A stretch of DNA of 32,261 bases from Saprospiraceae bacterium (GTDB lineage: Bacteria; Bacteroidota; Bacteroidia; Chitinophagales; Saprospiraceae): assembly GCA_020436935.1 (NCBI GenBank), contig JAGQWX010000056.1, positions 1-32,261 on the forward strand. The letters are read 5' to 3'. The position numbers and the translations under genes were made by a program. Shown piece by piece: positions 31,101-32,261 of the stretch (its first letter is position 1; every line of letters begins with the position of its first letter). The notes under the pieces are model-generated. The model worked only from the letters and a program-made list of their open reading frames with translations, searched no databases and had not been told where the DNA came from.

Positions 31101-32141
31101 ATGATCAACATTCACGACGCCTATATCACTGACGCCATTTGTCATTACATACCCGATGCGTCTTCAGGTGCAGATTTGGTGCATGGAAGTTTGCTGGACC
31201 TCGAAGCACTTGGAATTACAGGAGACGTGCTTCATCTGACGACTCAAAACTTTAAAGAACCCAGTTTTTTTGCGTTTACCTTCAATGATGATGACTTTAT
31301 CCTCAATCCATTATACAATTATGCAGGAAACATTTTTGATGAAGACAGCTTTCTTGAAAACAGCATCAAAATAGCGAGATACCTTTTTGACAAATCAAGA
31401 CATCCCTTTGTAAAGCCCGGAGAATTGCTGATAGCAAGGATAAAGAACATCCTGGTCGATGATGAAATGACCAATGGCCTTGCACTTGTCAAACTTGAAA
31501 ACCCCAGAGATTTCCTGCATTTTCAGCGTAACCTGTCAGGCTTGCAAATCTCTAAAACAGATGGCTTCGAACTGGACAAAGTTGATAAAGCTTGTCTTAT
31601 CCTCGAAAGTGACCGCGATGCCGGGTTTAAAATTCTCAATATTGACCAATCCAATAAGAACAACGATGCTAAATATTGGAGGGATGAATTCCTGAGATTG
31701 AAGGAAGTCACCAACGACTATCTAGCCACGAAAGAATACATCAGACTGACCGCCAACTTTGTAAAGTCAAAGGATGCGAACAATTTTTTTGAAGGCAAGG
31801 CAGAGAAGGCAGGAGTTTTGTCAAAGTCCGAAAAATATTTCTCCTCTCAGGAAAAGTTTGAGGAGGCAGAGTTTATGAATGCCGTTTTTGAAAACGATGT
31901 GCAAAAAGAAGCCTTTCAGTCATACAAAAGCCTTACAGAAGAGAACAGTCAGAAGCAATATGAGCCCAATTTTGAGATATCTGAAATGGCCAGCAAAAAG
32001 TATGGCAAGGTCTTCAAATCCGTCATAAAGCTGGATAAAAACTTCCACATCTACGTTCACGGAGACCATAAACTGATCAGAAAAGGAGTTGACGAAGAAG
32101 GTCGTAAATTCTATCAGCTCTTCTATGAAGATGAAGCATAA
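31101..32141 (+). CDS. 37-kDa nucleoid-associated protein (NdpA/YejK family)
   Basis: 346 residues, the usual size. The N-terminus INIHDAYITDAICHYI and the region NPLYNYAGNIFDEDSFLENS with SIKIARYLFDKSRHPFVKPGEL fit the Bacteroidota members of the NdpA family. The E. coli relative YejK lies on the nucleoid, but its biochemical role is not settled. The C-terminal part (about 210-346) is mixed helical and charged, ending in HVHGDHK-like strands (FHIYVHGDHKLIRKG). It starts 1 bp after the epimerase stop. Forty-five bases past its stop, on the other strand, lies the end of a group II intron. Confidence 0.85.
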   Translation: MINIHDAYITDAICHYIPDASSGADLVHGSLLDLEALGITGDVLHLTTQNFKEPSFFAFTFNDDDFILNPLYNYAGNIFDEDSFLENSIKIARYLFDKSRHPFVKPGELLIARIKNILVDDEMTNGLALVKLENPRDFLHFQRNLSGLQISKTDGFELDKVDKACLILESDRDAGFKILNIDQSNKNNDAKYWRDEFLRLKEVTNDYLATKEYIRLTANFVKSKDANNFFEGKAEKAGVLSKSEKYFSSQEKFEEAEFMNAVFENDVQKEAFQSYKSLTEENSQKQYEPNFEISEMASKKYGKVFKSVIKLDKNFHIYVHGDHKLIRKGVDEEGRKFYQLFYEDEA

Positions 32142-32186
32142 ACTCCATCCAGCCTTTATTGCCTGATTTTGGAAGGAAAAGATTTA

Positions 32187-32261
32187 ATCGAGTAGGTGAC
32201 AAAGATAAATGACTTTAGATCAAATTTATCTTTGTCGACCTCTCACACCACCGTATGTACT
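32187..32261 (-). mobile_element. 3' end of a group II intron (domain V 3' half and domain VI), truncated by the window edge
   Basis: Read on the minus strand from 32261, the sequence begins with GTACATACGGTGGT, matching the 3' strand of intron domain V. A 2-nt linker leads to a long hairpin: GAG (32244-32242), AGGT and a 13-bp perfect stem (32236-32224 with 32210-32198), 13-nt loop, then ACCT, an unpaired A at 32193, and CTC. The single bulged A on the 3' side is the hallmark of domain VI. It stands seven bases from the terminal AT at 32188-32187, and introns of this class end in AY. The 5' half of domain V, domains I-IV and any reverse transcriptase ORF lie right of the window. The insertion is antisense to and downstream of the nucleoid protein gene, so it does not break it. 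Confidence 0.78.

Follow-up and report, generated by a model that had tools for sequence, protein, structure and literature searches.

The 3' end of a probable group IIC intron with a short domain V behind the ndk terminator of a Saprospiraceae bacterium

Group IIC introns (bacterial class C), for which O.i.I1, GsI-IIC and Ta.it.I1 are the type cases, are linked to a CGC instead of an AGC triad in domain V. PMC4424553 describes IIC/class C introns as En-minus elements that insert at intrinsic terminators and gives the triad as "CGC for some introns", and PMC8919778 reports that bacterial-C introns are the predominant kind immediately downstream of rho-independent terminators and may be numerous. 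PMC7161350, the source for Ta.it.I1, reports for a IIC intron branching from the bulged A of domain VI that depends on the intron-encoded protein (IEP). A literature search on class C introns of Bacteroidetes together with terminators returned no paper.

Here, we describe the right edge of a 32,261-nt stretch of DNA (the window, all of contig C133) from a Saprospiraceae genome of 5.8 Mb in 181 contigs. This edge is almost certainly the 3' end of a mobile group IIC intron on the minus strand, located just behind the rho-independent terminator of ndk, between ndk and a convergent NA37-family gene. The element resembles other group IIC introns in its 5' GTGTG, 3' AT, bulged A in domain VI and CGC triad, as well as in its endonuclease-less RT-maturase, its insertion right behind terminator hairpins and its several copies per genome, but differs from the consensus of RF00029 (Rfam Intron_gpII) in a domain V of 30 instead of 34 nt, having lost base pairs of the distal helix. 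The last 75 bases of the window (32187-32261, minus strand) run from the 3' half of domain V through domain VI to a terminal AT, and the features at this edge are as follows:

31101..32141, plus strand: flanking gene of the 37-kD nucleoid-associated protein family (PF04245), outside the element and convergent with ndk across the intron
32142..32186, minus strand: 3' exon, intergenic, between the intron and the stop codon that ends the convergent NA37-family gene; starts with T (IBS3-like), as in 11/11 copies
32187..32188, minus strand: terminal AT, predicted 3' splice site; 11 genomic copies are shared up to here and diverge after a common T
32190..32244, minus strand: domain VI hairpin; fold z = -4.61, stem kept in relatives of different sequence
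32193, minus strand: bulged A, presumed branch point, seventh nucleotide from the intron 3' end; from the fold, and A in 7/7 aligned rows
32247..32261, minus strand: 15 of the 30 nt making up domain V, its 3' half; identical to the copy on contig C93, which has all 30 nt

The contig breaks off within the terminal tetraloop of domain V, from where the minus strand reads AGTACATACGGTGGT (the domain V 3' half), GT and a long hairpin with a bulged A, ending in ...CTCGAT at 32187. An 82-nt stretch folds at -26 kcal/mol compared to a shuffle mean of -13.8 (z = -4.61), and none of 200 shuffles folded as well. A previous sequence-only reading of this DNA had seen a group II intron 3' terminus here, with exactly one bulged A seven bases before the AT. 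The sequence, the bulge and the ending were as described, but the A lies four bases before the AT, and "exactly one" is accurate for the 3' arm of the lower stem, where the A is the sole bulge, whereas on the 5' arm one C (near 32237), and close to the apex two further bases, are unpaired too. The 45 bp it had counted between the stop codon and the intron are 32142-32186, as the last gene's stop codon ends at 32141. Rfam gave no group II intron here: at gathering thresholds no such family matched in the window, where domain V is cut to 15 of its 30 nt, nor did a search of 31900-32261 at E up to 10 yield any group II intron, giving only chance matches to other families; the complete domain V on C93 was missed as well.

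The genome contains 11 copies of the 75 bases, all at contig ends, and the window's version is identical to the majority of copies. All 11 copies end in AT, and past ...CTCGAT their flanks all differ, each beginning with T, such that 11 different 3' exons start at the boundary previously predicted from 32186 onward. Short, intergenic, hairpin-forming and present in many copies, the repeat could in principle be a dispersed palindromic element (REP-like or a transcription terminator) merely resembling domains V and VI. We consider this explanation to have practically no chance of being right, as it is refuted by the copies on contigs C93 and C115: the former reads on through a complete domain V to a maturase frame, matching 5' ends with domains D1-D4 exist, and the reason why the copies end with their contigs is that they continue into longer shared sequence. 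The C93 copy extends 345 nt beyond the 75 bases, continuing directly with the predicted 5' strand of domain V, GAAACCGCCGTACACG, and then with the C-terminus of the maturase that had also been anticipated, though the RT gene of the window's own copy falls in the assembly gap. The frame on C93 covers the C-terminal 108 aa, and the proposed maturase HMM search recovered it with GIIM (34.3 bits, cut-off 23, E 2.3e-8); its match to TIGR04416 was weak (25.3 bits, below the cut-off of 300). The evidence thus supports the earlier reading of a group II intron 3' terminus as right, while the 11 copies, the contig stopping at the repeat, the class and the terminator target all lay beyond its view.

The RT part of the copies in the window's genome is unassembled, and the full-length RT/maturase is known from a relative, the intron L032 of a Bacteroidota MAG (JAKPTX010000097.1), which shares the terminator target, D1-D4 (131.9 bits) and a 30-nt domain V with the window's intron but has another domain VI stem sequence. 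The L032 IEP, 465 aa in length and sharing 61% identity with the C93 fragment across 101 aa, has only RVT_1 and GIIM among Pfam domains, without an endonuclease domain, and its best solved match is the GsI-IIC RT (E 4.6e-103), with LtrA far behind (1.7e-36). In C93 the IEP ends 1 nt before domain V, in L032 4 nt before, and domain V of C93 and relatives carries the CGC triad within ACCGCCG. Because of the terminator insertion, the CGC triad, the endonuclease-less IEP and the match of the relative's IEP to the GsI-IIC RT, we place the intron, by sequence, in group IIC (bacterial class C), a known kind, with the protein class assigned by best matches. The same genome harbors other intron types on contigs C130 and C40, which would fit a 3' end belonging to another class, such as a IIB intron with a CL, B or D type protein. 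Such an origin is very improbable given the terminator targets, the CGC triad, a protein that lacks an endonuclease domain and ends 1-4 nt before domain V, and the distance between the GsI-IIC RT and LtrA matches.

The group IIC assignment agrees with where the copies sit. In each of the 10 near-identical copies, a hairpin followed by T residues terminates the 5' exon immediately before GTGTG. We scored 5' exons as terminator-like if the last 50 nt folded at -8 kcal/mol or below, with the 3' arm within 12 nt of the end and at least four T in the last 10 nt. Fourteen loci were entered and 13 scored, C178 being left out with a 5' end off the search pattern. The rule was passed by 12 of these 13 exons (the 10 near-identical copies, C66 and C55, with C139 failing); of 1,950 stretches drawn at random from the same flanks, 208 passed. 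With the fold threshold lowered to -15 kcal/mol or below, the counts were 11/13 and 30/1950. The hairpin on C41 is weak and passed narrowly at -8.2 kcal/mol. The introns of the relatives L031, L032 and L034 also sit behind hairpins.

The 5' end of the intron was represented by contig C115, where the element begins with GTGTG and matches the D1-D4 models RF02001 (120.5 bits) and RF01998 (36.3 bits). Across the genome RF02001 gave strong matches in three places (C55, C115 and C139) and weak ones, under the cut-off, in two more. The end of ndk lies on C115 as well, and this ndk is 88% identical to that of the same-genus genome G005. The last gene of the window has an ortholog in G005 (66% identical at the DNA level over 901 bases); there, ndk follows it after 77 bp on the opposite strand, and the intervening space is intron-free and contains a hairpin with a T tract in ndk orientation. 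The comparison with intron-free relatives called for by the sequence-only reading found an empty site between the same two genes. Because C115 holds the end of ndk and the NA37-family gene and ndk are adjacent without an intron in G005, C115 and C133 very probably flank one insertion, with C115 contributing the 5' half of the window's own intron behind the ndk terminator, a link that rests on synteny in one of four relatives: the NA37 gene lies beside ndk in G005 only, as checked with a short ndk motif. The 5' half on C139 was dropped as a partner, being single-copy, whereas the C115 5' end recurs at 10 contig ends. Given that 5' remnants occur in this genome (C66 and C178) and that the middle of the window's copy is unassembled, the site might instead hold a dead 3' fragment and not a full copy. 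We regard this as unlikely, since C115 has the matching 5' 472 nt of the intron at the syntenic position and the window's 75 nt are those of the majority of copies. With the full insertion as the preferred reading, the locus provides a detailed example of a group IIC intron behind an ndk terminator.

The C115-type 5' end gave 12 matches in total, of which 10 are contig ends at 99-100% identity, all starting with GTGTG, and two are diverged remnants. This start and the AT at the 3' ends agree with the GUGYG and AY termini of group II introns. These 10 intron 5' ends compare with 11 3' ends, and no whole copy of this intron lies on a single contig in the window's genome. About ten near-identical copies led the assembler to break contigs inside the intron, which explains the assembly break at the window edge; the copies mark about ten sites at which a retroelement, apparently active recently, has inserted. 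As judged from their sequences, the near identity of these copies points to recent copying. By analogy with group IIC biology, the intron RNA would fold into a ribozyme, bind its own RT/maturase and splice via attack of the bulged A, and the resulting RNP would reverse-splice into DNA at terminator hairpins; with a protein lacking an endonuclease, priming would likely occur at replication forks.

The domain V of this intron is short. On C93 the complete domain is ACCGCCGTACACGTAAGTACATACGGTGGT, 30 nt with a fold of -13.3 kcal/mol, and in form it agrees with the conserved short hairpin of group II introns that bears the catalytic triad and a 2-nt bulge. In C93, L031, L032, L034 and the same-genus genome G004 the 30-nt form has a lower stem of nine pairs and a distal helix of only two or three, capped by a GUAA or GUGA loop, G004 differing in the second base. 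The ltrA intron of Microscilla sp. PRE1 plasmid pSD15 (NC_002806.1), whose IEP is 56.5% identical to that of L032, likewise lies behind a hairpin and T tract, has a 30-nt domain V and is RF02001-positive and RF00029-negative, but differs in a distal helix of three clean pairs, a GAGA loop and its plasmid location. RF00029 missed all six complete 30-nt domain Vs (C93, L031, L032, L034, G004 and Microscilla), at E limits of 0.1 for L031, L032 and L034, 1 for Microscilla and 10 for C93 and G004. Over the whole genome it found only two introns, on C130 (40.1 bits, cut-off 40), where domain V has 33 nt, and on C40 (53.2 bits).

Allowing up to two mismatches, we scanned 395 genomes from the phylum for the short domain V and found it in the window's own genome only, L031, L032 and L034 lying outside this sample; the exact motif was found in no viral contigs. 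At this two-mismatch stringency the form is rare, yet it is present in L031, L032, L034 and G004. Literature searches on the short domain V or the Microscilla intron returned nothing relevant, and the accessible part of PMC3552965 is silent on them, which is weak evidence of absence from print. That the copies are nearly identical suggests activity of the short form. We tentatively propose, with the balance tilting slightly against it, a Bacteroidota IIC lineage in which domain V has lost about two distal pairs (30 versus 34 nt) and zeta-zeta' docking has been adjusted while mobility was kept, and which would be undercounted in surveys starting from domain V, since the standard Rfam domain V model misses such introns. 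If real and active, the short domain V would serve as a natural experiment on how much of its catalytic hairpin the ribozyme can do without, and would argue for extending the Rfam model.

Other group II introns and remnants occur in the same genome. Two further introns, both RF00029-positive, lie at C130:33985-34754 and C40:1-314, the C130 maturase being 34% identical to the C93 fragment. The intron 5' half at C55:95342-95676 has the top D1-D4 score in the genome (138.1 bits) and is located behind a terminator hairpin. At C139:29358-30191 there is a single-copy group II intron 5' half with an RT N-terminus and a 5' exon that is not terminator-like, and this intron may use another target. C66 and C178 match the first 60 and 115 nt only (87 and 84% identity) before passing into unrelated sequence; neither has a D1-D4 match, and both are taken as short 5' remnants of the same intron family. 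In the same-genus genome G004, a related intron is present in at least six copies, likewise at contig ends; it shares the short domain V but ends in ...CTACTTAAT and represents a separate expansion.
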